This document shows, piece by piece, positions 4,196 through 64,000 of a stretch of DNA of 64,000 bases; the stretch's first letter is position 1; each line of letters starts with the position of its first letter. The notes under the pieces were generated by a model that was not told the origin of the DNA, did not search any database, and saw only the letters and a list, made by a program, of their open reading frames with translations. The DNA is taken from assembly GCF_963675165.1 (NCBI RefSeq), contig NC_087391.1:1879001-1943000 (forward strand), read 5' to 3'. Position numbers and translations under genes: made by a program. The DNA is from Halichondria panicea. Lineage: Eukaryota > Porifera > Demospongiae > Suberitida > Halichondriidae.

Positions 4196-4293
4196 TGTGA
4201 AGTGTTAAAAAACACAGGTTACCAGGAAAAGCTTTAGTAGACTTTACTAGCAAACACTTTAATACATCACAAATCTCCAAGAGTGACCCTGCC

Positions 4294-8107: not shown

Positions 8108-9766
8108 TTAATTGTCAGAAGCGAGATATTTTTCATAGGCATCTTCCACCCACCTGTGTGGAGTAGCTATATCATCTCGCACTCTCATCTTGTACCAGCG
8201 GCTCAATATTCCCAACAATACGAAACCAGTGACACTCCAGAGAGTTGCCATCGAGCTGTAGGCAATCGAACAGTATCGAGGGTCAGAACACACTGTGTGA
8301 AATACCCCTGCTAAAACGTTAGCAACAATATTTGACATATAGTAGTTTGACCACATATAGCCAATCATAAGCCCTTTCATTTGGTGTGGAGATTGTGCAC
8401 AGACAAACTCAATGGCAGAAGTTAGCAGGATCGCTTTTAGAGGGGCTGAGATCAGAGAATGCATGATCCAAAACCAGTCCGAGTCGTAAGGATCTGTTAG
8501 CTCTTTGTTATGGTCTAGACCTGAGGCCACTAAGGAGATACCATTTACAACTATCGTAAGAAATGAGGCAAATCCGATTTTCTTCAAAATAGAAGGTATA
8601 ATGGGCACTGCAAATGGATAAATGAGAAACTCATAGATTGCTATAAAACCAACAACCCAGAGAGACGTTTCATAGGAGAATGACCTGATCATGACATCTG
8701 TACAATTTTGGGAAGCCAATATCGTGGATTCAAAGTCTTTCACATACGCAAACTGCTGAAAAAGATAGTATGAAGTGAAAATAAAGCCAAAGGACACACT
8801 GAGAGCAAGCATTCGCAAAACAGTTTTAACATTTTCAACTTCCTCAGTCGTAAATGGACCTCCATATCTCGATTTACCCAAGTCAATTCTAGAGGGTATA
8901 GCATCTTCGTAGTAAGTGAGAGCACTGCGATTGAGGGGAGCCTTGTGCTTTTTAGCAAACTTGAGAACTTTGAAGATCATTTGGAAGGATTGAGGACGCT
9001 TGTTTTCTAAAATAAGCAACTTATTCGAAAGCAAAAAATCGGAGCACAATACAATGCATAACGAAACTACTGACACAAGAGACATGACTTGCAAAGAGCT
9101 GTTTCCCTCGCCTGCCCAGCAGTCGGTTAGAACTCTCTTAAATAACGAGTTGATCCAGTTCCCAGCATAGAGACAAGCCACAAACCATACAACGTAACTA
9201 GCTACATTAGCCGAAGATGCATCTGGCATTTGATCAAGACCTAACTGCATTGATGTTACCAAAATCATGGCTCGACCAGCAAAACCCACAAAATGAATCA
9301 ATGTTGACAAAATTGAAGATGGAGCATACACACGGTCTTCGGCAATGGGTGAATCAACGCAAAGTTGGAGTACAGAGGCCATTATTGAAGCTACAAAGTA
9401 AATCAAAACACCAGCTCTCACCATAGTGAAGTTGCCACACTTAGTATCAGCTATCCATCCAGACAGTAATGCAAACACAAACCATGGAACATAGGGCAGA
9501 AAGATAACGTAATTAACTGGATTAAGATGCTCTCTATTTTCAAACACTGTTAGAAATGCTGTGAACAGGTTATCCAAAGAGCCAAAACCAATACTAACAA
9601 GAAGTGTCCACAGCAAAATTAGGTAAGCACCTTTTGAAGTAATCCACTTAAATCTGTACCTTATTTTATAGCATCGCCATCTTGTAAATTTAGGCTCCTC
9701 AGTATGTACAATAGGTTGATTGACTGGTAGATCAAGAGTGCCAAGAAGTTCATGATCACTAGCCAT
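8108..9766 (-). CDS. Type I POT/SLC15-like transporter, copy 1
   Basis: A single exon encodes 552 residues with about 12 hydrophobic segments. After a cytosolic N-tail of about 45 residues come helix 1 (AYLILLWTLLVSIGFG), the MFS-like loop GWIADTKCGNFTMVRAG, and the POT-type segment LDQMPDASSANVASYVVWF. A central loop with SALTYYEDAIPSRIDLG and YGGPFTTEEVENVKTVLR links the two halves, and EFVCAQSPHQMKG corresponds to the E-x-x-x-SQAP region of the C-terminal half. POT proteins move di- and tripeptides, histidine or other solutes with protons; the substrate here is unknown. The ExxER motif of helix 1 is absent (GFGSLDN stands there), so proton coupling by the usual route is doubtful. The ATG at 9766 starts the stretch conserved in its neighbour at 13008-14693, which is nearly identical. 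Confidence 0.83.
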   Translation of the reverse strand: MASDHELLGTLDLPVNQPIVHTEEPKFTRWRCYKIRYRFKWITSKGAYLILLWTLLVSIGFGSLDNLFTAFLTVFENREHLNPVNYVIFLPYVPWFVFALLSGWIADTKCGNFTMVRAGVLIYFVASIMASVLQLCVDSPIAEDRVYAPSSILSTLIHFVGFAGRAMILVTSMQLGLDQMPDASSANVASYVVWFVACLYAGNWINSLFKRVLTDCWAGEGNSSLQVMSLVSVVSLCIVLCSDFLLSNKLLILENKRPQSFQMIFKVLKFAKKHKAPLNRSALTYYEDAIPSRIDLGKSRYGGPFTTEEVENVKTVLRMLALSVSFGFIFTSYYLFQQFAYVKDFESTILASQNCTDVMIRSFSYETSLWVVGFIAIYEFLIYPFAVPIIPSILKKIGFASFLTIVVNGISLVASGLDHNKELTDPYDSDWFWIMHSLISAPLKAILLTSAIEFVCAQSPHQMKGLMIGYMWSNYYMSNIVANVLAGVFHTVCSDPRYCSIAYSSMATLWSVTGFVLLGILSRWYKMRVRDDIATPHRWVEDAYEKYLASDN

Positions 9767-10060
9767 CTTTTCTCTCTCACTGCACTATACACATGTAAGC
9801 CTAGGTGTGTCCACATGCACTCTATAATTATATGCTTTAAACAATGAAATCACAAGATCACAGATAATAATGATAATAATAACAAACGATGCTTTACTAC
9901 AATCATAGTATGTGCATATTTGCCTATATAGTACGCAGTACACTGTTCTAATGGCTTGTGTTTGAGGACCTAAGTACATTCAACTGCAAGGGAAAAAGAC
10001 AACAACAAAAAGTCAAAGCACTATGCCAAAAGTTGTTTGGGCTTCTGAGAGTTGGCTGGC
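9767..10060. other. Conserved upstream flank shared with the three cassettes
   Basis: From the end of the transporter leader to about 10020 the sequence matches 18430-18580, 32030-32230 and 54595-54795 (for example ACAAACGATGCTTTACTAC and GTACGCAGTACACTGTTC). In those places it links a type I transporter to the 3' end of CCT4. Here the match breaks off and a reverse-transcriptase fragment follows, so this locus was once next to a CCT4 copy as well. Confidence 0.6.
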
Positions 10061-13007: not shown

Positions 13008-14693
13008 TTAATTGTTTTGATTGTCGGAAGCGAGATACTTTTCATAGGCATCTTCCACCCACCTGTGTGGAGTAGCTATATCATCTCTCACTCTCATCTT
13101 GTACCAGCGGCTCAATATTCCCAACAATACGAAACCAGTGACACTACAGAGAGTTGCCATCGAGCTGTAGGCAATCGAACAATACCGAGGGTCAGAACAC
13201 ACTGTGTGGAATACCCCTGCTAGAACGTTAGCAACAATGTTTGACATATAGTAGTTTGACCACATATAGCCAATCATAAGCCCTTTCATTTGGTGTGGAG
13301 ATTGTGCACAGACAAACTCAATGGCAGAAGTTAGCAGGATCACTTTTAGAGGGGCTGAGATCAGAGAATGCATGATCCAAAACCAGTCCGAGTCGTAAGG
13401 ATCAGTTAGCTCTTTGTTATAGTCTAGACCTGAGACCACTAATGAGATACCATTTACAACTATCGTAAGAAATGAGGCAAATCCGATTTTCTTCAAAATG
13501 GAAGGTATAATGGGCACTGCAAATGGATAAATGAGAAACTCATAGATTGCTATAAAACCAACCACCCAGAGAGACGTTTCATAGGAGAATGACCTGATCA
13601 TGACATCTGTACAATTTTGGGAAGCCAATATAGTAGATTCGAAGTCTTTCACATACGCAAACTGCTGAAAAAGATAGTATGAAGTGAAAATAAAGCCGAA
13701 GGACACACTGAGAGCAAGCATTCGCAAAACAGTTTTAACATTTTCAACTTCCTCAGTCGTAAACGGACCTCCATATCTCGATTTACCCAAGTCAATTCTA
13801 GAGGGTATAGCATCTTCGTAGTAAGTGAGAGCACTGCGATTGAGGGGAGCCTTGTGCTTTTTAGCAAACTTGAGAACTTTGAAGATTATTTGGAAAGATT
13901 GAGGACGCTTGTTTTCTAAAATAAGCAACTTATTCGAAAGCAAAAAATCGGAGCACAACACAATGCATAACGAAACTACTGACACCAGAGACATGACTTG
14001 CAAAGGGGTATTTCCCTCGCCTGCCCAGCAGTCGGTTAGAACTCTCTTAAATAACGAGTTGATCCAGTTCCCAGCATAGAGACAAGCCACAAACCATACA
14101 ACGTAACTAGCTACATTAGCCGAAGATGCATCTGGCATTTGATCAAGACCTAACTGCACTGAAGTTACCAAAATCATGGCTCGACCAGCAAAACCCACAA
14201 AATGAATCAATGTTAACAAAATTGAAGATGGAGCATACACAAGATCTTCGGCAATGGGTGAATCGACGCAAAGTTGGAGTATAGAAGCCATTATTGACGC
14301 TACAAAGTAAATCAAAACACCAGCTCTCACCATAGTGAAGTTCCCACACTTAGTATCAGCTATCCATCCAGACAGTAATGAAAACACAAACCATGAAACA
14401 TAGGGCAGAAAGATAACATAATTAACCGGATTAAGATGCTCTCTATTTTCAAACACTGTTAGAAATGCTGTGAACAGGTTATCCAAAGAGCCAAAACCAA
14501 TACTAACAAGAAATGTCCACAGCAAAATTAGGTAAGCAGCACCTTTTAAAGTAATCCACCTAAATCTGTACCTTACTTTATAGCATCGCCATCTGGTGAA
14601 ATTAGGCTCCTCAGTATAAACAACAGGTTGATTGACTGGTAGATCGAGAGTGCCAAGAAATTCATTACTGGATTCAAGAGATATGGCAGCCAT
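13008..14693 (-). CDS. Type I POT/SLC15-like transporter, copy 2
   Basis: A single exon encodes 561 residues, almost identical to the product of 8108-9766 from the N-tail (LGTLDLPVNQPVVYTEEP) to the C-terminus (RDDIATPHRWVEDAYEKYL). Differences include the start (MAAISLESSNEF against MASDHELL), two extra residues before helix 1 (LKGAAYL against SKGAYL) and four extra residues at the end (QNN after SDN). Twelve hydrophobic segments, the SRIDLGKSRYGGPFT linker and FVCAQSPHQMKGLM are kept. Membrane solute transport is inferred from the family; the substrate is unknown and the helix 1 ExxER motif is missing. Near identity suggests recent duplication or gene conversion. The MAAISLESS start recurs in the remnant near 44190, which supports the chosen ATG. 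Confidence 0.83.
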   Translation of the reverse strand: MAAISLESSNEFLGTLDLPVNQPVVYTEEPNFTRWRCYKVRYRFRWITLKGAAYLILLWTFLVSIGFGSLDNLFTAFLTVFENREHLNPVNYVIFLPYVSWFVFSLLSGWIADTKCGNFTMVRAGVLIYFVASIMASILQLCVDSPIAEDLVYAPSSILLTLIHFVGFAGRAMILVTSVQLGLDQMPDASSANVASYVVWFVACLYAGNWINSLFKRVLTDCWAGEGNTPLQVMSLVSVVSLCIVLCSDFLLSNKLLILENKRPQSFQIIFKVLKFAKKHKAPLNRSALTYYEDAIPSRIDLGKSRYGGPFTTEEVENVKTVLRMLALSVSFGFIFTSYYLFQQFAYVKDFESTILASQNCTDVMIRSFSYETSLWVVGFIAIYEFLIYPFAVPIIPSILKKIGFASFLTIVVNGISLVVSGLDYNKELTDPYDSDWFWIMHSLISAPLKVILLTSAIEFVCAQSPHQMKGLMIGYMWSNYYMSNIVANVLAGVFHTVCSDPRYCSIAYSSMATLCSVTGFVLLGILSRWYKMRVRDDIATPHRWVEDAYEKYLASDNQNN

Positions 14694-15244
14694 CTTTTCT
14701 GTCTACACAGGAGTTCCACATTCTATGTGGTTTACACTTTAACCATAATCATAAGATTGCATGGGAACTTGGGATTCACTAGACCACAGATTAGTATACC
14801 ATGGGCGTATAAAAGAACAGAGGGCATGCAACAGAACTCACTATCTAGTAGACGTAGCTAGCAGAATTCATGAACTCTGCTTTATTACTCTTTTATACGA
14901 CAGAAGTAGTGCCAATCCAAGTCAGATGTGTCTATTCATGTGGCTATACTGCATTGGTAGAGGCGTTTCCCAGATGAAGCTCGTCAAAACACGGCAACCT
15001 GAGCGACATCTAACTATAGTGGGATTCTTCCTTCTTGTAGAAAATAATACTTTTTGCGGACTATTAAAATACTGTGCTTTTCTACTTTAACAATATTTAA
15101 TATGACGTGTTCTGACAATACTTGACATTCATCAATTATAGTGACATAATGATTGCATGCACATGTAACATTTCTGAGTATCACGGAAAAGTGGCGGGTT
15201 CGACCAGACGTCCTTCCCTCTTCGACGGCTGCTTGCGAGACTAG
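14694..15244. other. Spacer with a short repeat tail, no gene seen
   Basis: The minus strand near 15178-15235 has GAGGGAAGGACGTCTGGT, a word that recurs at about 50716 in the other orientation and looks like part of a dispersed repeat. Open frames here lack any family signature. Confidence 0.3.
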
Positions 15245-24659: not shown

Positions 24660-26360
24660 CTAGAGTACAGATCTATTTGAGATATATCTGTCATAGACTT
24701 CTTCAACCAAAGTATGAACGTTGACTATGTCATCTCTTTCTCTCCTCTTGTACCAGCGAGCAAGTAGACAAAACAGTACAAACCCAACCAAAGTCACCAC
24801 CGTAATAAAGGATGAGAAAATCAATATGTGTTGCGCTAAACCGTCTTTAAAAAACGAGAAGGTGGTTATAAGTTCGGCTATTGGATAAGAAATGATGACA
24901 ATACACCACAAGTAGCCCTGCAAAAGACCGCGCATATTGTAAGGTGACTGAGCAGAGACAAACTCCATTAAAGAAGGATATAGTATCGAATAAATGATAG
25001 CTACACACAAAGCATGGATGTAGACTAGTGCAATGTGAACATCATGGTTGAAATAGAAGTACACACAGATCAATACGCATAAGAAGGAGGTGATCACAAT
25101 TAACAGGAAAGACACACCAATACGTCGGATTGAGCTTGGAGTCAAATGTCCAAATAGTGGGAAAATAACGAGCTCATGCACAACAAGGAACAGGGAAGGA
25201 AGCAAATTCAGGTCATAGGTGAAAAACTTAATCACATGTGAGTGGCATCGTTGGCTGTCTGTTGTATTCGCAACATTGCTAGAATCAGCTTTGAGTATAT
25301 TTATAATGTTCGATTGCATTTGGAATGAGAAAAAGCTCAGCCATAAGGGTGCAGTGAGAGCTAATATTCGTAAGAGAGTTTTCACATCTTCAACTTGCTC
25401 TACTGTAAACGGTCCACCATACTTGGTCTTCCCCAAGTCTATTCTAGAAGGTATGTCTTCCTCCCAGTATGTGAGAGCACTGCGATTAGTAGGAGATTTG
25501 TGCTTTGCAGCATATTTCAAGACATGATAGACCATCTTCATACACTGTGGACATTTTGGTTCAATAATAAGCCATTTTGGAGTGAGGAAAAGGTCTGAGA
25601 TGAGAACAATTGACATGCAAACTACAAATAACAAGCTCCAAACTGTCTCAAAGTTAATTCCGAAACACACTGAGCCCGTGTTATAAGAGAAATCACTAAA
25701 CCAATTACCGAAATACACAGAAGCGACAAACCATGATATGAAACTGGTGATGTTGGAGACTGAGCTGTCAGTAATTTGATCCAAACCAATTTGCGATAGG
25801 GTGACAAATAAAATAGCAACACTACCGTATCCTAGAGACGAAGTGAACGTTACTAACCCAATACTCAAACTAGGTGAGTACTCCATGATAGACTGTCTAA
25901 CTATCACCAATATACACTGCAGAATGGAAGTTACAAACAACAGTATGAATGCAATCTTCGTTGATCGGTATCGCCCAATAAAATTATCGGCAATGTATCC
26001 AGAAAGTAAAGCCACCAGGACAAACATGACCCCAGGCACAACAGTGGGAATTAGCTCATAATTCAACTTAAACAGTATCATAAAATTGTCCAGTGATCCA
26101 AATGTACAGTTGACAAGAACAGTCCAAATGAGCACTAATACAGCTGCCTTTGAAGAAATCTTTCGCACTCTGCATTTAGGCTTGAGGTACTGACTGCGCC
26201 TTAGGATCATGTCCTCTGCCACAGATTGCTTGATTAAACACTTTTGAGAATTCACTACACCTGGCTCAGTATCATTAGTAAGAGCCCTGGACGCAAACAC
26301 CACACGCTTTGTTGATGTGCCAGACTCAGAACTACTCATACTCAAGCTTGGGTCTGCCAT
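24660..26360 (-). CDS. Type III POT/SLC15-like transporter, unit 1
   Basis: A single exon encodes 566 residues. The cytosolic N-tail of about 75 residues is long and Ser/Thr-rich (MADPSLSMSSSESGTSTKRV), ending KCRVRKISSKAAVLVLIW at helix 1. About 12 hydrophobic segments follow, with GYIADNFIGRYRSTK in the first half, LDQITDSSVSNITSFISWF, the linker ALTYWEEDIPSRIDLGKTKY and GGPFTVEQVEDVKTLLR, and EFVSAQSPYNMRGLLQGYLW in the second half. The end RREERDDIV-like stretch (RRERDDIVNVHTLVEEVYDR) is shared with types I and II. By family it moves peptides or related solutes across a membrane; the substrate and the compartment are unknown. The ExxER motif of helix 1 is not present (TFGSLDN). It lies about 350 bp from the broken type II gene on the same strand. 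Confidence 0.82.
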   Translation of the reverse strand: MADPSLSMSSSESGTSTKRVVFASRALTNDTEPGVVNSQKCLIKQSVAEDMILRRSQYLKPKCRVRKISSKAAVLVLIWTVLVNCTFGSLDNFMILFKLNYELIPTVVPGVMFVLVALLSGYIADNFIGRYRSTKIAFILLFVTSILQCILVIVRQSIMEYSPSLSIGLVTFTSSLGYGSVAILFVTLSQIGLDQITDSSVSNITSFISWFVASVYFGNWFSDFSYNTGSVCFGINFETVWSLLFVVCMSIVLISDLFLTPKWLIIEPKCPQCMKMVYHVLKYAAKHKSPTNRSALTYWEEDIPSRIDLGKTKYGGPFTVEQVEDVKTLLRILALTAPLWLSFFSFQMQSNIINILKADSSNVANTTDSQRCHSHVIKFFTYDLNLLPSLFLVVHELVIFPLFGHLTPSSIRRIGVSFLLIVITSFLCVLICVYFYFNHDVHIALVYIHALCVAIIYSILYPSLMEFVSAQSPYNMRGLLQGYLWCIVIISYPIAELITTFSFFKDGLAQHILIFSSFITVVTLVGFVLFCLLARWYKRRERDDIVNVHTLVEEVYDRYISNRSVL

Positions 26361-26383
26361 ATCAACAGTTATGATTTCCCTAT

Positions 26384-27015
26384 TAATTTGCTAATACAAG
26401 AGCTTTAAGATGCATGTGACTAGCCAAATATAGGAACTCACTATCAGTATCAATTATAAACAATACCCTTCCTGACCACTATACTCCTCGGGTTCTCAAT
26501 ACAACTAAGACACCTAACATTTACTTTCACTATAATATCATTTGTAAAAGAGCTTTAAAGCTCTTGTATTAGCAAATTATTATATAGAAGTGAAAGTAAA
26601 TATATAACTGTTTATATGGCGGACTCAAAGCTGAGTATGTGTACTTCAGAGTCTGATGTAGAGGGTTTATCAACAAAGCGTTGTGTCCAGGTCTCTTACT
26701 AATGATACTGAGCCCTGGACTATGATCTACGTACGTCATAGAAGCTACAACAATTCTAATGTGCATGCCATGCCTTGAACCTGAGCCTACTATAATGCTA
26801 TAACAGTTGGAGTAGGTGCATGTAGTAGGTGTCTTAGTTGTATTGAGAACCCGAGGAGGGTACAGGAAGGGTTCCTATATTTGGCTAGTCACATGCATAT
26901 CCTTAAGGATATGCATGTGACTAGCCAAATATAGAAACTCACTAATAATGTCAAACAAATGCCCTTCCTGTGTACTACTCATAACATATAATAGGCTTGA
27001 GTTCAAGGCATGGCA
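26384..27015. repeat. Nested inverted duplications around the type III 5' end
   Basis: TTAATTTGCTAATACAAGAG just upstream of the type III ATG reappears inverted at about 26556-26581. A 60-bp perfect palindrome without spacer lies at 26875-26934 (arm CTATATTTGGCTAGTCACAT... ). Outside it, CATGCCTTGAAC near 26770 pairs with GTTCAAGGCATG near 27004. Unit 2 has only the simple, non-duplicated version of this flank (42241-42420), so the inversion is specific to unit 1. Confidence 0.7.
26616..26730 (+). pseudogene. Head-to-head inverted copy of the type III N-terminus
   Basis: Read on the plus strand, ATG at 26616 begins MADSKLSMCTSESDVEGLST, followed after a frameshift by SRSLTNDTEP. This matches the N-tail of the type III transporters (MADPSLSMSSSESGT... 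and ALTNDTEPG). The copy faces away from the intact type III gene, with about 255 bp between the two start codons. It is only about 35 codons long and broken. Confidence 0.75.
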
Positions 27016-40530: not shown

Positions 40531-42240
40531 CTAGAGTACAGATCTATTTGAGATATATCTGTCGTAGACTTCCTCAACCAAAGTATGAACGCTGACTATG
40601 TCATCTCTTTCTCTCCTCTTGTACCAGCGAGCAAGTAGACAAAACAGTACAAACCCAACCAAAGTAACCACAGTAGCAACGGATGAGAAGATCAACTTGT
40701 GATGCGCTAAACCATACTTAGAAATCGAGAAGGTAATTATCAGTTCGGTTATTCCACTAGAAAACATGACAATACACCACAAGTAGCCCTGCAAAAGACT
40801 GCGCATGTTGTAAGGTGACTGAGCAGAAACAAACTCCATTAAAGAAGGATATAGTATAGAAAAAATGGTAGCTACACTCAAAGCATAGATGTAGGCTAGT
40901 GCAATGTGAATATCATGGTAGAAATAGAAGTACACACAGATCAATATGCAGAAAAAGGAAGCGATCACAATAAGCAGGACAGACATACCAATACGTCGGA
41001 TTGAGCTTGGAGTCAAATGTCCAATTAGTGGAAAAACAACGAGCTCATACACAACAAGGAACAGAACAGTAAGCAAATTCGACTCATAGGTGAAAAACAT
41101 GATCACATGTGAGTGGCATCGTTGGCTGTCGGTAACATTTCCAAATGGATCAGCTTTGAGTACAATATTATATACAATTTTCAATTGCATTTGGAATGAA
41201 AAAAAGGTCAGCCATAAGGGTGCAGTGAGAGCCAATATTCTTAAGAGAGTTTTCACATCTTCAACTTGCTCTACTGTAAATGGTCCACCATACTTTGTCT
41301 TCCCCAGGTCTATTCTAGAAGGTATGCCTTCTTCCCAATATGTGAGAGCACTGCGATTAGTAGGAGATTTGTGTTTTGCAGCATACTTCAAGACACGGTA
41401 GATCGTCTTAATAGATTGTGGAGATTTTGGTTCAATAATAAGCCATTTTGGAGTGAGGAAAAAGTCAGAGATGAGAACAATCGACATGCTAACTACAGAT
41501 AACAAGCTCCAAACTGTCTGAAAATCATCTCCGAAACAAAACAAGCCCGTGGTAGAAGAGAACTCACTAAACCAAACACCAAAAAACCAAGAAGCGACAA
41601 ACCACGCTATGAAACTGGTGATGTTGGAGACCGAGTTGTCAGTCATTTGATCCAGACCAATTTGCGGTAGAGTGACCAATAGAATAGCAAAACTACCAAA
41701 TCCCAGAGATGAAGTGAACGTTACTAATCCAATTCTCAAACCCAGTGGGTACTCCACGATCGACTGTTTGGCTGTCACCAATATACACTGCAGAATGGAA
41801 GTTGCAAACAATAGTATGAATGCAATCTTTGCCGATTTGTATCGCCCGATAAAGTTATCAGCAATGTAGCCTGAAAGTAAAGCCATAACGACAAATACGA
41901 CCGCAGGCACAATAGCAGAAATCAGGTCATCGTTCAAATGAAACAATATTGTTAGATTGCCCAAATATCCGATTACAGATATGGCTAGAACAGTCCAAAT
42001 GAGCACTAATACAGCTGCCTTTGAAGAAATCTTTCGTACTCTGCATTTAGGCTTGAGGTACTGACTGCGCCTTAGGATCATGTCCTCTGCCACGGGTTGC
42101 TTGATTAAACAGTTTTCTTCTCTAAGAGAATTCAATGTGCCTGGCTCAGTATTATTGGTTAGATCTCTGGACGCACGCTTTGTTGGTGAGTCCTTCACAT
42201 AATACTCAGAAGTACTCATACTCAGCTTCAGGTCCACCAT
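40531..42240 (-). CDS. Type III POT/SLC15-like transporter, unit 2
   Basis: A single exon encodes 569 residues with the same plan as 24660-26360: N-tail MVDLKLSMSTSEYYVKDSPT, a basic stretch KCRVRKISSKAAVLVLIW, about 12 hydrophobic segments, the linker TYWEEGIPSRIDLGKTKYGG and the second-half motif EFVSAQSPYNMRSLLQGYLW. The C-terminus RRERDDIVSVHTLVEEVYDR is kept. Substitutions concentrate in the N-tail and the large luminal or outer loop after helix 7 (PFGNVTDSQRCHSHV). The open frame with many amino-acid changes from its two relatives suggests that selection has kept it. Solute unknown; no ExxER motif in helix 1. Confidence 0.83.
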   Translation of the reverse strand: MVDLKLSMSTSEYYVKDSPTKRASRDLTNNTEPGTLNSLREENCLIKQPVAEDMILRRSQYLKPKCRVRKISSKAAVLVLIWTVLAISVIGYLGNLTILFHLNDDLISAIVPAVVFVVMALLSGYIADNFIGRYKSAKIAFILLFATSILQCILVTAKQSIVEYPLGLRIGLVTFTSSLGFGSFAILLVTLPQIGLDQMTDNSVSNITSFIAWFVASWFFGVWFSEFSSTTGLFCFGDDFQTVWSLLSVVSMSIVLISDFFLTPKWLIIEPKSPQSIKTIYRVLKYAAKHKSPTNRSALTYWEEGIPSRIDLGKTKYGGPFTVEQVEDVKTLLRILALTAPLWLTFFSFQMQLKIVYNIVLKADPFGNVTDSQRCHSHVIMFFTYESNLLTVLFLVVYELVVFPLIGHLTPSSIRRIGMSVLLIVIASFFCILICVYFYFYHDIHIALAYIYALSVATIFSILYPSLMEFVSAQSPYNMRSLLQGYLWCIVMFSSGITELIITFSISKYGLAHHKLIFSSVATVVTLVGFVLFCLLARWYKRRERDDIVSVHTLVEEVYDRYISNRSVL

Positions 42241-42407
42241 ATAAACAGTTATACACTTACTTTACGTTCACTATAATATCAGCTAATACAAAAGCTTTAA
42301 GGATATGCATGTGACTAGCCAAATATAGAAACTCACTACCAATGTCAAACAATGCCCTTCCTGTGTACTACTCATAACATACAATAGGCTTGAGTTCACG
42401 GTATGGC

Positions 42408-44194: not shown

Positions 44195-44490
44195 CAAGCA
44201 CATATTCAACAGCAAGGGGAAAAGGACAGAAAAAACAGCTAAAACACCACCCAAAAACTGGCAACCAACTGGCAACCACTCTTATTATGAACATCTTATG
44301 TGTATAATTTGCGATACCTTGAAAATGACAATGTATGCGCATCATTTACTATATGAAAGGGTCTACACACTTAATTTTACCGTGTGACACAGTATACAAT
44401 ACTCTGCTATGATTTGAGATAATTGTACAGCAATTAAGAAAGAAAGCATACAGTTAATTGGGAATACTATAGTGATGTCGTGTGAGTACA
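44195..44490. other. Spacer, no gene seen
   Basis: AT-rich sequence between the transporter remnant and the tandem repeats of the ligand gene. No element end or open frame of note. Confidence 0.4.
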
Positions 44491-44750
44491 TAGTGATATC
44501 ACATCATTAGTCTAAAAGGACACGTTGAAAGGTTACTGTATGTATAGTATAGTGATATCACATCATTAGTCTAAAAGAACACTTGAAAGGCAGTATAGGA
44601 ACATGGAGTACATATAATTATAGTGATTTCACATCATTAGTCTAAAAGGACACGTTGAAAGGTTACTGTATGTATAGTATAGTGATATCACATCATTAGT
44701 CTAAAAGAACACTTGAAAGGTTACTGTATATATAGTATAGGAACATGTAG
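44491..44750. repeat. Tandem repeat upstream of the DSL-like ligand
   Basis: Four units begin AGTGAT(A/T)TCACATCATTAG at about 44492, 44550, 44622 and 44680. They alternate between AAAGGACACGTTGAAAGG and AAAGAACACTTGAAAGG, giving a 130-bp unit repeated twice. The second type contains CACTTG, an E-box-like word. The array ends about 25 bp before the ATG of the ligand gene, so it lies in the promoter or 5' leader. Confidence 0.75.
44726..44736 (+). promoter_or_regulatory. TATA-like sequence before the ligand gene
   Basis: TATATATAGTA lies about 45 bp upstream of the ATG at 44775, inside the last tandem unit. Position and sequence suit a core promoter, but transcription start is unknown. Confidence 0.3.
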
Positions 44751-44774: not shown

Positions 44775-47418
44775 ATGAAGATTAATTTTGTATTGTTTTG
44801 GAGTGTGGCAGTCAGTGTGTGTGCAAGTTTCACCACAGTGAGTTATACTAGCTGTAGCATCCACTTATATATAATTATGTGTATGAGTACAGGTGAGAGG
44901 TGAATTTATATTATCAGTGAATTTCATCAACTACACCAACCCAACCGGACTGTGTGCTGAATGTGAGACTGAATTGGGAGATGTGACAAGTGCTGACCAG
45001 CTAGTACCAGTGTGCTGTGATGAGCTACCATTCATAAACACCAATTGTGACAACACAGGAGAGGGGAGATGTGACACCAGGTTCCGTTGGACCATCAGAC
45101 AATTTGGTGCTACGCTAGAGACACGAGCCCTTAGTATGCGCTATCCTAACGCTTCTTCCTACTTCTTTACCAACTGTAACAACGCACACGGCACTTCTTG
45201 CCCATTCAGTGAAATGAGCACAACATTCGGTCAAGGTCCAACAGCACTACTGGGAGTAACACCCAATCCTCTGCCTGTTTCAAAAACAGATTTTACTGTG
45301 TGGATGGTATGTGGTGTTCAATCTTATACCATTTTGATATGATTGAACTTTTTATATATAGGGACGAATCCAGTTTTTCATAGAAGCCGTGGACAGTGGA
45401 CTCCTGAACATAATAGACAGTCTATTGATTGACCTGGACAGTCTCCAACTTGGAGCAGGCTTCACAGAGGAGATGACATTCACTGGATTCCACAACATAT
45501 CTCACATGACCATGAGTTTCAGAGTCGAGTGCTCTCCTGGTTTCTGTGGACCTGACTGTTCCACAACACCTCAGAACAATCCACGAGTGGCGACATGTCA
45601 AGCTGATGGTACTCTAACATGTACTAACAACCGATTAGACCCTTCACCTCTTGTAGCCTGCAACAACTGCCTCTACAACCTGAATATTACTACTGGCTGC
45701 TCCTGCGTACAGACCAACTATGACCCAACCAACAATTGCACAGCCTGTCTTCCTGGGTATGATATTTCCCAAAACTGCTTACAATGTATCAACACGAAAT
45801 ATAATCCTGATGCAAATTGCTCTGTATGCATTATAGGCGTAAGATATGACCCATTTACCAGCTGTTCGTCATGTGTGGACACAAACTTCAATCCTTTTGA
45901 TGGCTGTACAACATGCTTGGAATTTTACGATTCGCTAAGGAGCTGTACCCAATGTCTACCCAACAGAGATCTATCTACCAACTGCACCCAGTGCCTACCC
46001 AACAGAGATCCCTCTACCAACTGCACCCAGTGTCTACCCAACAGAGATACCTCTACCAACTGCACCCAGTGCCTACCCAAAAGAGATCCCTCTACCAACT
46101 GCACCCAGTGCCTACCAGGCTGGAACATCACCTCGGACTGTACTAGTTGCCTACTCAACAGAGATCCCTCTACCGACTGTACCCAGTGCCTACCCAACAG
46201 AGATCCCTCTACCAACTGTACCCAGTGTCTACCAGGCTGGGACATCACCTCAGACTGTGCTAGTTGCCTACCCAACAGAGACCCAGTCACCAACTGCTCC
46301 CTCTGCCTACAACCAGACAGGTTCACTGATACAGACTGCAGTGTGTGTGTGCTCTACCAGGAGGGGACCCAGCAACACTCTGTCAAACATGCTTGGATAA
46401 CTTTAATCCTACCTGCACTGAGTGTGTGGCTAACTATGATCTGAACACCAAATGTTTGTCTTGTCTACCAGGCTATGATATTAATAGTGTATGTACAATA
46501 TGCCTTCTAGGACGAAATATATCCACAAGATGTACTACCTGCCTGTCTAGATTCACTGGAAGTAACTGTGAACCTGGTGAGTGCTATACACAACACTATA
46601 CATGTACACAGTCAACACAGAGTGTGCTTGGCATATAAACAAAAGCATCGATAACCAAAAATAATTACACTTGCTATAGAATCTATAGAAACTTTACTAA
46701 GTGTGGGACTGGTGGGTGGTATCGCTGGAGGAGTGGGTGGAGCTTTGCTACTCATCATTCTAGTAATGGCCATGCTCCTACTTACAGTCCGTATCAGAAA
46801 GAGTGGTAACCAAGACATCAGTACTGCCACTACTACAGGTGAAGCACTAGACACATGCACTAGCTATGCACTTGCTACATAATGACTTCAGAAATTTTCA
46901 TCGATGCACGCAGCAATTAGCATTGATCAACACTAGTCTGACTGCTTTAAGCTTTTTAAATCCATGCAGACAAAAAAGTTACAGAAGTCATGGAAATGAG
47001 TCAAAACCCCGTGTACATCAGTATGAGTACAGCTGAAACACATACCACGGACCATGAACCCATACAAACATGTCCTAACATACTCAAAGGGATCAATGCT
47101 GAGGCTAACCACACCCACCAGTACAAGACTGTGGACACACCCATTGAAATGAATCAGAACCCTGTGTACAATATTGAAGCTGACTATGAGAACAATGATC
47201 TGGGACCGACAAGAAATGAGCAGCTACTATGGGGTGTTATCTGTGTCAAAATGACTATGACAATGTACACACGCGTGCATTCATATGCACATTACAATAT
47301 GCATGTCAACATGCATATGCACGTTACAATATGCATGTCAACATGCATATGCACATACAATAAGCATGTCAACATCCATATGCACGTTACAATATGCATG
47401 CATGCAACATGCATATGA
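44775..47418 (+). CDS. DSL (Delta-like) transmembrane protein with CxxC-repeat stalk, five exons
   Basis: Exons 44775-44837, 44893-45306, 45362-46576, 46680-46838 and 46970-47418 join with GT-AG borders and matching phases. Exon 1 encodes a signal peptide (MKINFVLFWSVAVSVCAS). Exon 2 resembles the MNNL/C2 region of Notch ligands (GEFILSVNFINYTNPTGLCA). Exon 3 begins the DSL-like module (FRVECSPGFCGPDC, then TCQADGTLTC); the usual YYG is FCG and one later cysteine is absent, so it is divergent. About 22 repeats of ~13 residues of the type LPNRDPSTNCTQC follow in place of clear EGF domains. Exon 4 holds one membrane span (GGALLLIILVMAMLLLTV). Exon 5 gives a short tail with NPVYIS, NPVYN and DYENN, then runs into minisatellite up to a stop at 47416-47418. 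A two-base excess in the GT run 46341-46350 shifts the frame between repeats 17 and 18. Notch-pathway ligand is an inference; a scavenger or adhesion receptor is also possible. Confidence 0.7.
45950..46275 (+). repeat. Coding minisatellite, 39-bp unit
   Basis: CTACCCAACAGAGATCCCTC with ACCAACTGCACCCAGTGC makes a 39-bp unit repeated in frame about eight times, with variants for LPGWNITSDCTSC. High identity between neighbouring units points to recent unit turnover; repeat number may vary between individuals. Confidence 0.85.
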
Positions 47419-47640
47419 TCTGAACATTATATACAACATGCATATGCACGTTACAATATGCATGCAACATGCATATGATCTGAACATTACAACATATTGT
47501 ATGTGCATATGCACATACAATATGCATGTCAACATCCATATGCACGTTACAATATGCATGCATGCAACATGCATATGATCTGAACATTACAACATGCATG
47601 CATGTCAACATGCATATAATTATTATACACATTTACAGTA
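47285..47640. repeat. Minisatellite of ATATGCATGTCAACATGCAT units
   Basis: Units of about 30-36 bp built from TGCACGTTACAATATGCATG and CAACATGCATATG are repeated some ten times. The first part is read through as the end of the ligand open frame (NMHVNMHMHV...), which is unlikely to be functional protein. The same satellite appears inverted at 48590-48790 and 49883-49940. Confidence 0.8.
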
Positions 47641-48018
47641 TTATGCTGCATGCATGGGATTAATTATTGACAATTATACCTCCAGCAGCATAATTATACA
47701 CTTACACCCAATAATATGCATATACATGTCCATATAATAATGATTGGTATAGACTGGTTGGCACACACAACATTGATTGTGGATGACTCCTACAAGACTC
47801 CAATTTGAGCTGGAAAAGACGCCGCAATAATTAGTTTGTTAGTAGGTGTGACATCTTGACTTGATTGTGCACGTGCGGTAAAGATATAAGCCCACTCCAC
47901 ATGTACCGACTCTTCTTCTTCTTCTTTGTAGCCTCCAATTAATGAAGAGTAGCCCATTGGGCAGACGAAAAAGAATATTGAAATTGGGTATTATAACACG
48001 CAGCAAGAGGGTGGAGCT

Positions 48019-48290
48019 TTAAACCAATGTGCGTGTGAGAAGGAGATCAGCGCGGGTTTGCCTTAGATCTTTGATGAAGAGCAAGAGCCACTCTTGCGCG
48101 TGGGCAGCTTTCAGCCAGACAAGGCCTTGCAGGAGATTGTAGAGGGTGTCATGTAGTGCCCTTGGGTCGTGGGGGAGGTGAACACTGACGCAGGTTGGGG
48201 CATCCTGCAGGAGAGCATGTCTGCGCGCTGAGAGAGCAGGGCAACTTACTAAAAAGTGTGAAGGCGACACGTGGAGAGTGGGCTTCTAAA
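48019..48290 (-). pseudogene. LINE reverse-transcriptase C-terminal fragment
   Basis: SPSHFLVSCPALSARRHALL is the typical post-RT segment of non-LTR retrotransposons (HFLL-x-CP-x-x-x-x-x-R). The remaining 60 residues end at 48019. Only the 3' tail is present. Sequences at about 47905-47960 and 48300-48355 (TTCTTCTTCTTC then GCCTCCA...GAGTAGCC) are roughly inverse to one another and may be the ends of the unit that carries it. Confidence 0.6.
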
Positions 48291-48589
48291 TATAATCTGC
48301 CCTCGTTGGCTACTCTCCAAATCTGGAGGCGAGAAAAATAAGGAAGAAGAAGAAGTACCGGCAGTGTATCAGACTCTATAGCTAGCTAGTTATAGCTGTG
48401 ATATAAATGGCTGACAAGATTACTCGCGCCAGCGAGATAATATAAATTTATTGTGCTAGTCCTATTATATAATGAGCACTTGCACTTTGACCCAATGACC
48501 ACATAATCTAGACTCCACCCTTTCTGCCTACAAAATTACAGTGTAATTACTCTCAATATCCGGATACATGCATATTGTGTAATGTGTAA

Positions 48590-48790
48590 GTATACATGCA
48601 CATGCATACTAGTAATTATTATTGACTTGATAATTGTGTAACGAGTACATGCATGTTGTAATGTGTATATATTATGTTGGCATGCATGTTGGCATGCATG
48701 CATGCATGTTGCATGCATGCATGCATATTGTAAGGTGCATATGCATGTTGCATGCATGCATATTGTAAGGTGCATATGCATGTTGCATGC
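48590..48790. repeat. Inverted block of the GCATGC minisatellite
   Basis: GCATATGCATGTTGCATGCA and CATATTGTAAGGTGCATATG are the reverse complement of units at 47285-47640. It is directly left of the 86-bp-TIR element and supplies its 9-bp target site GTTGCATGC. Confidence 0.7.
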
Positions 48791-49882
48791 TAGCCTCGAT
48801 CCCAGGCCGAGTTTTCGCTTTTATAACGGTTAGGCAAACAACTGGGCCTGGTACTAGTTGTCTGCGCATGCGTCAATCGTTCGTCAGATTCTGACGAATG
48901 GATATTCTCGTTCACTTTCGTGACATTTATATTCGTGTACTATCGTGTACTAGAAGTCAGTTCCCGTTTTATTATTATTGGAATCGATTGGAATGGCTCT
49001 TAGCTGAAGCTTCTCTCTTCTCTGAAGCTTATTCTGAAGACTGAACAACAAGGGAAGAGGTATAAAGCTTTGTCAAGCTTGTTAAGGTCAAATATTTTTG
49101 TGTGGGCCCTATGGCCGGCTATGCTATCAAGTCTTGTTCATGTTTGGCAAGAATGTAGGTAGACTATAGTTTCATCATTAATTAATATGGTGGATCAAGA
49201 GATCAAGTGAAGAGTGTGAGCTAGAGAACTTGGTGCTGCCATCATCAGCTCGTCGACAATGACACTATAACTGAGAAATTTAATATGTATAGATCTACAC
49301 GTATTTAAAATGTCTACTTCTCTGTACAGGAGCAATGGCTAATATCCAGCTATCCCAACAGTGCTCCTCTTGGCTATACTAACTGACGAGACTGGACAGT
49401 TTGAGGTAAGGGTTTAACTGTCTTTGGTTTCTTTTAATATTGTCCTATACTCACAGACACAGGACTGGAGTATGACCTGCTCATTCGAGCGTTGCTGGGT
49501 AGCTCAGAGACATCAAGAGAATCTACATTTTCTCAAGCAATGAGTTACGAGTTGGGGCCTAGAATCAGAGAAGTCCAGCAGCCTGCTAAATCTTTTTGAA
49601 ACGTAATTTGAAGGCATTCAATCATCCTGAAGTTGCCCTGGGTCACTGTAATTGTGCTGCAGCACAACTGGCAACTCCCCAGGCCTTTGTGAAGCAGCTC
49701 CCTATGTGCATCTTTTGTGTACTCACTCTGTGCATTTTCTGTGTACAAATTTCGATTATTGAATATTTTTGCCCACCACAAATATACAATGAAAATTTGA
49801 CGCATGCGCAGACAACTAGTACCAGGCCCAGTTGTTCGCCTAACCGTTATAAAAGCGAAAACTCGGCCTGGGATCGAGGCTA
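48791..49882. mobile_element. 1.09-kb DNA element, 86-bp inverted ends, 9-bp target duplication
   Basis: Ends 48791-48876 and 49797-49882 are inverse copies with one mismatch, starting TAGCCTCGATCCCAGGCC. GTTGCATGC stands on both sides (48782-48790, 49883-49891), although the surrounding satellite weakens that evidence. Long ends with a 9-bp duplication suit a Mutator-like (MULE) element. No transposase is present. The core has two exon-like pieces with splice-type borders (LLLAILTDETGQFE before GTAAGG at about 49405; DTGLEYDLLIRALLG after CACAG at about 49458), which might be captured host sequence. Confidence 0.72.
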
Positions 49883-49992
49883 GTTGCATGCATATTGTAT
49901 GTGCATATGCATGTTGGCATGCATATTGTAATGTGCATATGTGTACATTGTCATAGTCATTTTGACACAGAAAACACCCCATAAGCTACCGC
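49883..49992 (-). repeat. Inverted copy of the ligand exon 5 tail and satellite
   Basis: On the minus strand it reads TATGGGGTGTTTTCTGTGTC then AAAATGACTATGACAATGTA, the same text as 47224-47272 of the ligand exon 5, followed by satellite. The 3' end of the gene therefore sits at one arm of a broken large inverted duplication (47224-47640 against 48590-49992). Confidence 0.75.
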
Positions 49993-50094
49993 CGGAATAC
50001 AATTATATTCAAGTGTGAAACTATAATACAGCCTATTTCCTTTTATTCTTGCTATTACTTTTCTGCCAATGTGTGTAGAAAAGTCTATGGCATA

Positions 50095-60392: not shown

Positions 60393-62000
60393 TCAATTGC
60401 GTTCATTCTCTTCATTCTCTGAGAGGTATCGGTCATAGGCATCCTCCACCCATTTTTGAGGGGTGGCTATGTCGTCTCTCACTCTCCTCTTGTACCAGCG
60501 GGCCAGGAGGCAGTACAACACAAACCCAGCAAGACTTAACAAAGCAGCCAGTCCAGTATACAGTATCACTATCCACGGGTGAGTTGATTTAAGATCATAA
60601 AGTACTTCGAATAATATTTGAGCTAAAATATATGTGAATACATCTATACACCACACATAGCCGAGCAGGAGGCCTCTCATATTGTAGGGCGACTGGGCAC
60701 ACACAAACTCCATAGCAGAAGTCAGTAGCGAGATAATAAGAGCGGCCACGACAATAGAGTGAGCATACGCCAACACTATGTGGATAGGTTGGTTGCTCAC
60801 ATAGTAGTAGATACTCAGAAGTACACACACAAAGTTCACGATGAAGATTGCAAAGGCTATAAGGCCAATTCGTCGTATGGAGCTTAGAAATATATGACAG
60901 ATCAGAGGGTACATGAATAGCTCATAAACTACTACTAGAACAATACACCACAGGTCCCATTGATAAGTGAAGTAGGTCAGTACAGTTGTGGTACAGTTAG
61001 AGGCTCCATCGAAATGCAGCTCATAATCAAAGAGAGCAAAAATGTTCAGAAACATATGAAAAGCGACAAGGATTATCCACATAGGTGAGGTAAGAGCTAA
61101 AACTCGAAAGAGAGTTTTCACATTTTCAACTTGCTCTGTAGTGAACGGTCCACCATACCTTGACTTGCTCACGTCCATTCTTGAAGGAATGTCTTCCTCC
61201 CAGTATGTGAGAGCACTGCGATTGAGAGGAGCCTTGTGTTGCTTAGCAAACTTGAGAACTCGATAAATAATTTTCAGAAACTGCGGTGACTTTGGTTCAA
61301 TTATCAGCCATTTTGGAGTTATAAAAACATCAGAAATGAGAACAATAGACATGCAAATCACTGGAAACAAGCTAAAAACAAGAGCATACTCCGACCCAAT
61401 ACACTGAAGACCAACATTTAAAGAAACTTCGGCTAACCAAAACCCACCAAATACAGAAGCGACAAACCAGGCAATGAAACTGGTAATGTTCGTTGATGAA
61501 GACTCAGGCATCTGATCCAGACCAACTTGAGGCAACGTCACTGGAATTATGGCACTACTGCCATGCCCAATAAACTTGACTATAGTAGTTAGTGCAATTG
61601 CCAGGCTAGCATCGATGTCAACGGCATTTTCAACAACAAACAGAAAAGATTGAAGCAAAGCTGTCACAAACATTAAAACCATCCCCATCTTAGCAACACG
61701 GTACTGCCCTAAATATGTGTCCGCCAGCCAACCAAAAAAGACGGCACTGAACGGCCACAGGATATAAGGGACAACACTAACAATCACACTGCCCTCCACT
61801 TCAGACACACCAACGTACTTATAGGTCATAGCATTGATCATTACAGAGAGAAAGAAGTTCCAGACGAGAACTAACAGGGCTGACTTGGAAGAAAATTTTC
61901 TCCATCTGGGCTTGAGGCATTTCCTGTAGTTTGGCTTAAGCTGCTGAATACATACAGGTGGTTCAAATTCTTCAGATATGCTAGCCAAATTTTCAGACAT
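60393..62000 (-). CDS. Type II POT/SLC15-like transporter, intact copy (unit 3)
   Basis: A single exon encodes 535 residues. The N-tail of about 38 residues (MSENLASISEEFEPPVCIQQ) ends in a basic patch before helix 1 (ALLVLVWNFFLSVMINAM, about 41-58). Then come helix 2 and the loop GWLADTYLGQYRVAKMG (about 90-106), LDQMPESSSTNITSFIAWF, the central linker NRSALTYWEEDIPSRMDV with SRYGGPFTTEQVENVKTLFR, and EFVCAQSPYNMRGLLLGYVW in the second half. The C-terminus is RRVRDDIATPQKWVEDAYDR. About 12 membrane spans are expected. It is the only unbroken type II gene in the window; copies in units 1 and 2 are dead. Family role: solute transport, often proton-linked peptide or histidine uptake; substrate unknown and the helix 1 ExxER motif is absent (MINAMTY). 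Confidence 0.86.
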   Translation of the reverse strand: MSENLASISEEFEPPVCIQQLKPNYRKCLKPRWRKFSSKSALLVLVWNFFLSVMINAMTYKYVGVSEVEGSVIVSVVPYILWPFSAVFFGWLADTYLGQYRVAKMGMVLMFVTALLQSFLFVVENAVDIDASLAIALTTIVKFIGHGSSAIIPVTLPQVGLDQMPESSSTNITSFIAWFVASVFGGFWLAEVSLNVGLQCIGSEYALVFSLFPVICMSIVLISDVFITPKWLIIEPKSPQFLKIIYRVLKFAKQHKAPLNRSALTYWEEDIPSRMDVSKSRYGGPFTTEQVENVKTLFRVLALTSPMWIILVAFHMFLNIFALFDYELHFDGASNCTTTVLTYFTYQWDLWCIVLVVVYELFMYPLICHIFLSSIRRIGLIAFAIFIVNFVCVLLSIYYYVSNQPIHIVLAYAHSIVVAALIISLLTSAMEFVCAQSPYNMRGLLLGYVWCIDVFTYILAQILFEVLYDLKSTHPWIVILYTGLAALLSLAGFVLYCLLARWYKRRVRDDIATPQKWVEDAYDRYLSENEENERN

Positions 62001-62332
62001 GTTAAAGTTTTAGTTGTCTTTACAGATAGGCTACATTCGTCAATAAGCGACTGATTAGCACGTGCCACTACACATATTGTTCGAGTGAAACAATGGTAGA
62101 CAATGTTTTTAACAACTTATGCGACTGTATGTACAATACACCACAAAAACATTGTCAAATGCCCCAAGGATATATACATATACCATTGTATTCCTGCAGT
62201 ACACATACAGTTATTATATTGTTCTCCAGTTAGAAATGTATGTAGACAACTTATTTTTGGAATTTCAAATATGTTTAATGTACACGTATATATATAACGT
62301 AATACAATAATCAGTAAGTGCTAAAATACAAA
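62001..62332. other. Intergenic region between type III and type II genes (unit 3)
   Basis: It matches 24314-24659 and 40193-40530. It is the 3' flank of type III and 5' flank of type II. No TATA box or element was recognised with confidence. Confidence 0.4.
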
Positions 62333-64000
62333 TCAATTTGGGAGATATCTGTCGTAGGTTTCCTCGACCAAAGTATGAACACTGACTATGTCATCTCTTT
62401 CTCTCCTCTTGTACCAGCGAGCAAGTAGACAAAACAGTACAAGCCCAACCAAAGCCACTGCAAAAGTCACGGATGAGTAGATCAACAGGACAAGCGACAA
62501 GCTATCTTTAGAGAATGAGAAGGAGTTTATCTCATAATTAATCAGAAAGGCTATTGAAACAGAAGATGTGAAAATAGACCAATAATGACCCTGCAAAAGA
62601 CAGTGCATATTATAAGGTGACTGAGCACAAAGAAACTCCATTAAAGAAGGATATAGTATCAAAGTAACGATAGCTACACTCAAAGCATGGATGCAGGCTA
62701 GTGCAATGTGAATATCATGGTAGTAATAGAAGTACACACAGATCAATATGCAGAAGAAGGAGGTAATCACAATAAGCAGGAAAGACACACCAATACGTCG
62801 GATTGAGCTTGGAGTCAAGTGTCCAAATAGTGGGAAAATAACGAGCTCATGCACCACAAGGAACATAGCAGCAAGCAAATTCGGGTTATATGTGAAAAAC
62901 TTAATTAAATGTGAGTGGCAGTGTTGGCTCTCTGTTGCATTCGCACCAATGCCAGGAAGAAATGGCTCAGGTTCTAACACATCTAAAATGCTCGATTGCA
63001 TTTGGAATGATAACAAGCTCAGCCATATAGGTATAGTCAGAACTATCATCCTTAAAATGGTTTTCACATCTTCAACTTGCTCTACTGTAAATGGTCCACC
63101 ATACTTTGTCTTCCCCAGATCTAGTCTAGAAGGTATACCTTCTTCCCAGTATGTAAAGGAACTGCGATTAGTAGGAGATTTGTGTTTTGCAGCATACTTC
63201 AAGACACAATAGATTGTCTTCATAGACTGTGGACATTTTGGTTCAATAATAAGCCATTTTGGAGTGAGGAAAAAGTCCGAGATGAGAACAATTGACATGC
63301 TAACTACAGATAACAAGCTCCAAACTGTTGCAAAATCACTTCCGAAGCAAAACGAGCTCGTGGTAGAATAGAACTCACTAAACCACATACCAAAAAGATA
63401 AGAAATGACAAACCATGTTAAGAAACAGGTTATGTTGGAGGCTGAGCTGGCAGGCATTTGATCCAGACCAAGTTGTGGCACAGTGACCAGTATAGCTGCA
63501 CTACCATATCCTAGAGACAAAGTAAACGTTACTATCCCAATACTCAAACTATGTGGGAAATCCACAATGGACAAATGTTTGTTTATCACCAATATACACT
63601 GCAAAATGGAAGTTACAAACAATAGTATGAATGCAATCTTCGCCGATCGGTATCGCCCAATAAAGTTAGCAGCAATGTAGCCAGTAAGCAAAGCCACAAT
63701 GACAAATATGACTTCAGGTACAATAATGAAAATCGGGTCATCGTGTAAATTAAGCAGCATCGTAAGATTGTCCAAAGATCCATACACAGAGTTGACTAGA
63801 ACAGTCCAAATGAGCACTAACACAGCTGCCTTTGAAGAGATCTTTCGTGCTCTGCATTTAGGCTTAAGGTAATGTCTGCGCCTTAGGATAACGTTTTCTG
63901 TCACAGGTTGCTTGATTGAAATGTTTTCTTCTGTTAGAGAATTCACTGTACCTGGCTCAGTATCATAAGTAAGAGCCCTGGACGCAAAAACCACACGCTT
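62333..64000 (-). CDS. Type III POT/SLC15-like transporter, unit 3, 5' partial
   Basis: The frame is open from the stop near 62333 to the window edge. The GTG at 63994 is not the start: the preceding codons read KR and match STKRVVFASRAL of the unit 1 gene, so about 20 N-terminal residues lie beyond base 64000. The body has the basic stretch KCRARKISSKAAVLVLIW, GYIAANFIGRYRSAK, LDQMPASSASNITCFLTWF, the linker TYWEEGIPSRLDLGKTKYGG and EFLCAQSPYNMHCLLQGHYW. It ends EETYDRYLPN, slightly shorter than its relatives (NRSVL missing). The loop after helix 7 is longer (PGIGANATESQHCHSHL). It is the most divergent of the three type III copies and has no lesion. Confidence 0.8.
   Translation of the reverse strand, partial: KRVVFASRALTYDTEPGTVNSLTEENISIKQPVTENVILRRRHYLKPKCRARKISSKAAVLVLIWTVLVNSVYGSLDNLTMLLNLHDDPIFIIVPEVIFVIVALLTGYIAANFIGRYRSAKIAFILLFVTSILQCILVINKHLSIVDFPHSLSIGIVTFTLSLGYGSAAILVTVPQLGLDQMPASSASNITCFLTWFVISYLFGMWFSEFYSTTSSFCFGSDFATVWSLLSVVSMSIVLISDFFLTPKWLIIEPKCPQSMKTIYCVLKYAAKHKSPTNRSSFTYWEEGIPSRLDLGKTKYGGPFTVEQVEDVKTILRMIVLTIPIWLSLLSFQMQSSILDVLEPEPFLPGIGANATESQHCHSHLIKFFTYNPNLLAAMFLVVHELVIFPLFGHLTPSSIRRIGVSFLLIVITSFFCILICVYFYYYHDIHIALACIHALSVAIVTLILYPSLMEFLCAQSPYNMHCLLQGHYWSIFTSSVSIAFLINYEINSFSFSKDSLSLVLLIYSSVTFAVALVGLVLFCLLARWYKRRERDDIVSVHTLVEETYDRYLPN

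Follow-up and report, generated by a model that had tools for sequence, protein, structure and literature searches.

A clustered sponge gene family with a Delta-type head and a CxxC-repeat stalk as a candidate repertoire of surface recognition receptors

We lean, with modest confidence and on sequence grounds, towards reading a family of at least 43 paralogous genes in the sponge Halichondria panicea as a repertoire of single-pass surface recognition receptors with a Delta-type Notch ligand as their ancestor, of which the gene examined here would be a decaying member. This gene lies in a stretch of 64,000 nucleotides, hereafter the window, and the original prediction had described it as a Delta-like ligand, or possibly a sponge-specific ligand or receptor class, carrying a stalk of CxxC repeats where EGF repeats are expected. 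The window gene is spliced, lies on the + strand, starts at 44775 and comprises five exons with GT-AG borders. Its parts, in window positions, are as follows.

44775..44837, + strand: exon 1, the ATG and a hydrophobic leader (signal peptide by eye), donor GTGAGT; the frame runs on into exon 2
44893..45306, + strand: exon 2, 138 residues, the N-terminal stretch of an MNNL/C2-like domain, which aligns to the Delta-type genes found in this genome
44965..45006, + strand: hypervariable loop HV1 of exon 2, between C-A-E-C and V-C-C-D
45362..46576, + strand: exon 3, which completes the MNNL/C2-like domain and holds the DSL-like module and the CxxC stalk; its frame breaks at 46342-46351
45518..45661, + strand: DSL-like module (FRVEC ... 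VAC), without the third DSL cysteine and the GHY-type loop, with one additional cysteine
45662..46576, + strand: CxxC stalk, 22 CxxC motifs in total, family consensus CLPNRDPSTNCTQC
46342..46351, + strand: TG run, one TG longer than in 28 pattern-matching paralogs, frame break
46680..46838, + strand: exon 4, putative membrane span followed by basic residues, 98% identical to paralog L011
46985..47227, + strand: first part of exon 5, tail with two NPVY motifs and DYEN
47228..49983, no strand: inserted element (ends inverted), flanked by the duplicate AGCTAC at 47222-47227 and at 49984-49989; L011 has the site without it
49990..50018, + strand: rest of exon 5, moved away by the element; by eye it codes for the C-terminal tyrosine motif and the stop

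The order that had been predicted, namely a leader, an MNNL/C2-like half, a divergent DSL-like module, a stalk, a membrane span and a tail, was seen in the gene. The hydrophobic leader was recognized by eye and the one long hydrophobic span by reading in the window protein and by hydropathy in paralogs, a layout that may be that of a type I membrane protein. CNNC, the first stalk motif, runs across the end of the DSL-like module. The predicted number of about 22 repeats agrees with our count of CxxC motifs, 17 before the frame break and five (by eye) after it in another frame, and a 39-bp unit at 45943-46233 scores 373 in Tandem Repeats Finder. The sequons of the form N-C-T or N-C-S, which had also been claimed, were found eight times in the window stalk and in 189 of the 548 stalk units counted family-wide. 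Direct repeats of about 59 bases, possibly promoter repeats, lie 5' of the start codon at 44480-44740 (44612-44740 by tandem finder, the rest by eye). Around the gene, six long open frames that resemble each other and are rich in hydrophobic stretches lie on the - strand (8111-9784, 13011-14702, 24663-26390, 40534-42261, 60396-62009 and 62336-64000), which by eye are possibly a tandem transporter family, and another - strand open frame at 3389-4204 reads by eye like a caspase-type peptidase domain.

The reading frame is broken by the TG run at 46342-46351, which holds one TG more than in 28/28 paralogs that match our search pattern (42 paralogs were fetched, 14 of which do not match it). The gene end claimed at 47418 was wrong, because an element of 2,756 bp, which contains that stop, occupies the last exon from 47228 and the rest of the tail lies at 49990-50018. 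The inverted ends of the element measure 88 bases and are 78% complementary, the 6-bp duplication AGCTAC flanks it on both sides, and L011 represents the empty site; a second, tighter and nested-looking inverted pair lies within the element (48790-48876 and 49797-49883, 99%). The ending EY[DN]Y[IV]QV is carried by 15 of the 17 tails listed of the type found in the window (type A, below), and its counterpart in the window gene is the displaced piece beyond the element. L011 is the nearest copy, with 98% nucleotide identity in exon 2, and has its own, different frame break in exon 3. The window gene is a damaged, decaying copy of its family, and therefore this particular copy may do nothing.

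The paralogs, counted as exon-3 loci, number 41 on contig C15 and two on C6. Those on C15 fall into groups of 14 at 1.07-1.13 Mb, 10 at 1.26-1.32 Mb, two at 1.92-1.96 Mb and 14 at 2.19-2.30 Mb, with a single one at 0.04 Mb, and the total is a lower bound which leaves out fragments such as C15:1094034 and C15:1114032. Two Delta-type genes (C15:2178079 and 2184612) adjoin the 2.19 Mb cluster and a third (C15:1340709) is some 20 kb away from that at 1.26-1.32 Mb; an MNNL match at C15:53425-53589 (E 3.8e-5) is not far from the lone member, L052. A motif rule finds exon 3 open to its expected end in 32/43 members and fails the other 11, among which L037 and perhaps L023 seem, by eye, to be failed wrongly. 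The 32 open members carry 2 to 58 CxxC motifs (median 14), the longest stalks being those of L039, with 58 motifs in a single open exon of 862 residues, and L022, with 48 motifs and 731 residues. Analyses of exon 2 covered 41 of the 43 members, as L022 (exon 2 outside the fetched stretch) and L025 (alignment start not at residue 1) were dropped, and joint analyses of exons 2 and 3 covered 40, L028 being dropped too for a stop in exon 3.

Taken as a single sequence, the window protein matched neither MNNL nor DSL in Pfam, even at E 10, and a PDB search gave no match; its weak Pfam matches (DUF4313, Mucin-like, Headcase, SIT and others) were below their cut-offs. Hence, of what had been expected of a Delta-like N-terminus, the direct match to MNNL or DSL did not appear, and the absence of a clear match to any other family held. 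Among 11 family members compared with Pfam none matched MNNL and one touched DSL at E 0.079, and one of the 11 heads touched EGF_PEAR1L at E 0.48. Scans of the genome gave 26 DSL and 29 MNNL matches, none of them at the 43 family loci, and a profile of the 11 members found two chance-level matches in the PDB, one of them a Notch EGF at E 1.8, so that family membership was not based on these. Since the family loci gave no direct match, five matched Delta-type genes of the same genome, L053-L057 (L053 and L054 being 93% alike), were taken as a yardstick; all five match both MNNL and DSL in Pfam, and their profile matches solved Delta and Jagged structures (best 7alk, 6.2e-32).

The family profile, built from 11 of the 43 members, aligned end to end with the yardstick profile over 199 columns with a score of 124.7 (hhalign, E 5e-19), as against 26.3 for the best of 81 controls (reversed, 13.6; 40 column shuffles, at most 21.5; 40 shuffles with cysteines fixed, at most 26.3). 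Each part alone also aligned to its own place: exon 2 at E 3.5e-4, with a probability of only 37%, the rest of MNNL at E 1.3e-6 and the DSL part at E 3.5e-9. Furthermore, the second intron of the window gene is in phase 0 and follows W-M, and a phase-0 donor after W-x was found in all nine MNNL-type genes checked, the next exon opening with a G codon in eight of them (L066 is the exception). The profile alignment with its controls, together with this intron common to Delta-type genes, bears out the predicted Delta-like N-terminus and shows the family head to be a diverged MNNL/C2-DSL head of, as far as sequence can tell, Delta-type descent. A tree of 12 members and eight Delta-type genes placed the family in one group (100/99), with long branches elsewhere. 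L055 came nearest to it as a possible parent gene; its placement is weak, with long branches, an unsettled bootstrap and a support of 86/77, and we therefore name no parent. A single-sequence AlphaFold model of window exon 3 was uninformative (pLDDT 31.5), and two peptide patterns run against prokaryote contigs yielded no relative that could be confirmed.

The homology of the head to Delta-type genes over its whole length raises the alternative that the proteins are diverged Notch ligands or decoys, whose heads would make contact with Notch, either in trans or in cis, and whose many copies would tune signalling. The genome does hold a Notch-type gene, on C10, with LNR by Pfam and the EGF, membrane and ankyrin parts by eye; this gene was taken in preference to an LNR pair on C17, which by its looks is presumably phosphotransferase-like. 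The GHY-type loop, which we take to be the loop that bears F204 in Drosophila Delta, stands before the fourth DSL cysteine in 8/8 Delta-type genes and in 0/40 family members. The third of the six DSL cysteines is missing in 40/40 members as well, and all 40 have a new cysteine five residues after the first. According to PMC8490980 the DSL loop with F204 binds Notch, and PMC6040629 places Notch-like genes in choanoflagellates also. Since the Deltas of Amphimedon likewise have no bilaterian Notch-contact residues, according to PMC3482393, which also describes AmqDelta4 as free of EGF repeats, the loss of the GHY-type loop and the cysteine makes Notch binding by the family less probable rather than impossible. 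Besides these losses, the window protein has no detected EGF repeat, and a family of 43 or more copies in which a loop diversifies does not resemble a single conserved interface. We consider the Notch-ligand alternative unlikely, and the 'ligand' of the original prediction is not supported, given the loss of loop and cysteine and the lack of an EGF match in the window protein; its other term, 'receptor class', would seem to fit the family better.

Several further DSL and MNNL loci were noticed in the genome. L058, L059 and L060 and matches on C12, C14 and C6 represent more MNNL-type clusters without a DSL match, of which the three that were fetched run into EGF repeats by eye; together they look as if MNNL genes had radiated more widely in the genome. 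L062 (C4:5456800-5458600) has three DSL matches in series in one exon, an arrangement of three that recurs at C4 5.594 Mb. A cluster of DSL matches at C2:2043085-2083484 includes L061 (C2:2061000-2065500), in which by eye one frame leads from a DSL module through a serine/threonine-rich stretch to a hydrophobic span, without EGF repeats.

With the limit at E 10, the window protein had no EGF family among its Pfam matches. Of the 548 stalk units, 362 place nine residues between their first and second cysteines, with the consensus CLPNRDPSTNCTQC. A score matrix made from distinct units was run over 11 loci, eight with DSL modules and three MNNL-type, and its peaks fell on the last DSL loop and the residues after it in L055 (CFQGYMDPSTNCTQC, 31.2), L063 (29.8) and L057 (27.7), as against a maximum of 15.9 in 30 rounds of shuffles. 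The last DSL loop of L061 scored weaker, 17.9, little above the shuffle maximum, and has no final cysteine. Such a stalk-like loop was thus found in just four of the eight DSL-bearing loci scanned; L053 scored -1.5 and L054 2.4, and in L056 and L062 the last DSL loop was not among the top-scoring rows. EGF repeats were rejected as the source of the stalk, the EGF-type windows of the scanned genes scoring at most 5.9. In L036 and L052 a unit of this kind joins the DSL-like module straight to the stalk. From the peaks of the matrix we infer, with good support, that the stalk probably arose by repetition of the last DSL loop, of the kind seen in L055, L057 and L063, with a CxxC link, each unit presumably holding one disulfide. 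The predicted CxxC stalk in the place of EGF repeats is consistent with these results.

Variation among the copies, followed here across the paralogs of one genome, affects a loop of the head, the length of the stalk and the kind of tail. HV1 (exon 2 columns 25-39) takes 36 distinct forms in 40 members, with lengths of 4 to 15 residues in 41 members. Its pN/pS over 20 disjoint pairs is 1.50 (bootstrap 1.28-1.81), a value that misalignment or gene conversion may inflate, since the loop has indels; the same pairs gave 0.49 in exon 2 outside both loops and 0.34 in exon 3. A second loop (exon 2 columns 79-93) has four lengths and a pN/pS not above 1. By our mapping HV1 would correspond to the beta1-2 loop of the C2 domain and the second loop would lie within the long loop after strand 2. 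According to PMC5538765 and PMC8490980, the beta1-2 loop of Delta and Jagged is variable and has a role in binding phospholipids, and known ligands form Notch site 1 with the long loop that comes after strand 2.

Exons 2 and 3 differ in their relationships. The nearest neighbour by exon 2 is also that by exon 3 in only five of 40 members, and the two sets of distances correlate weakly (Mantel r 0.28, p 0.024), some tail labels in this comparison coming from the cluster and a weak exon 4 match rather than from tail-by-tail reading. Despite an intron of some 50 to 70 bases between them in most copies shown, the trees of the two exons reject each other (AU p 1.4e-4 and 2.5e-37), which shows that the exons have been mixed between copies, by recombination or gene conversion.

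About five kinds of tail were told apart by hand from examples in the clusters.

Tail A: window type, NPVY twice
Tail B: 2.19 Mb cluster, long and tyrosine-rich
Tail C: some members of the 1.07 Mb cluster; L033 has LVYSNI and LVYDYV
Tail D: C6
Tail E: 0.04 Mb, VEYATI

Motifs were counted in five tails picked and cut by hand and in one Delta-type tail, that of L055, which has neither NPxY nor ITIM-like motifs. NPxY occurs once or twice in the example tails A, B, D and E, as against a mean of 0.02-0.10 after shuffling. ITIM-like motifs occur in tails A, C and E and not in B and D, with 0 to 2 per tail as against 0.1 to 0.8 expected; the candidates among these five tails are LEYDYI in A (L012), LVYSNI and LVYDYV in C and VEYATI in E, that of tail A hinging on the L found in L012 and L013, as most A tails read PEYDYI. 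A YDYI/V-like element is present in the example tails A, B, C and D.

These features may also be read in terms of adhesion proteins, homophilic or heterophilic, that sort tissues, in which the stalk is a spacer and the variation is the drift of a tandem family. The putative single-pass build and the cysteine-rich stalk, of very variable length and rich in N-glycosylation sequons, would suit such proteins; we nevertheless think this improbable, as exon 3 is strongly constrained, pN/pS exceeds 1 in one loop only and the example tails bear tyrosine motifs of the signalling type. We give little credence to the view that the family is mostly dead, its diversity feigned by slippage and transposons and the window copy a plain pseudogene, for although the window copy has its frame break and insertion, L011 is frame-broken too and 11/43 members fail the intact-exon-3 rule, 32/43 pass it, one or more of the failures (L037) seem mistaken on inspection by eye, pN/pS stays at 0.34 for exon 3 and at 0.49 for the part of exon 2 outside the loops, and the type A tail ending is kept in 15/17.

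We thus return to a recognition-receptor repertoire of Delta-type descent as the preferred reading, in which the function in recognition is inferred from the features described. In such a repertoire the proteins would be displayed at the surface and would not act as Notch ligands. The diversified C2 tip would bind varied partners, be they self markers, microbes or both, and a disulfide-bonded, probably N-glycosylated stalk would set the reach from the membrane. Tyrosines of the tail (NPxY, ITIM-like, YDYI), once phosphorylated, would recruit PTB or SH2 proteins. To our knowledge, the genes for self/non-self discrimination in sponges are largely unknown. More tentatively, it is possible that an early-branching animal performs recognition of self/non-self or of microbes with dozens of clustered C2-DSL receptors, built on the scaffold of a Notch ligand, that have a positively selected and recombined tip loop, stalks of duplicated DSL loops and both activating and inhibitory tyrosine tails. 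If the repertoire reading is true, the mapped loci would be candidates for grafting and expression studies, a developmental ligand would be convertible to a variable receptor repertoire, and a new protein stalk could come from one disulfide loop of an adjoining domain.

Our literature search, which took in few subscription papers and no preprints, gave studies of Delta in sponges (PMC3482393) and in choanoflagellates (PMC6040629), no hypervariable family derived from Notch ligands or DSL proteins and no invertebrate recognition family with a DSL head. The Alr proteins of Hydractinia are an invertebrate recognition family with tyrosine motifs in some members. An expansion of the SRCR family in a sponge is reported in PMC10855680. 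Both resemble the present family as expanded and variable surface receptors but belong to other domain families. ITIM-bearing paired receptor families likewise combine a common ectodomain with differing tails and clustered genes, some tails of the present family being assigned by cluster only. Receptors of the MEGF10/Draper type share a cysteine-rich stalk and NPxY or YxxL-like tail motifs; they have EMI and EGF-like repeats and are not known to have an MNNL/DSL head. AmqDelta4 is, like the family, a sponge DSL protein without EGF repeats, but in the accessible text of PMC3482393 it has detectable MNNL and DSL, and neither a CxxC stalk nor an expansion is described there. With the DSL-type Notch ligands as a whole (Delta and Jagged/Serrate, including AmqDelta1-5) the family shares an MNNL/C2-like domain followed by a DSL-like module, one putative membrane span and a tail with linear motifs, and with the Delta-type genes of its own genome the phase-0 intron. 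It differs from these ligands in that it has a CxxC stalk with no EGF repeat found, is without the GHY-type loop, the third DSL cysteine and the strand-2 cysteine of C2, is missed in both domains by the Pfam cut-offs, and numbers at least 43 copies, most of them in clusters, in which one loop diversifies.
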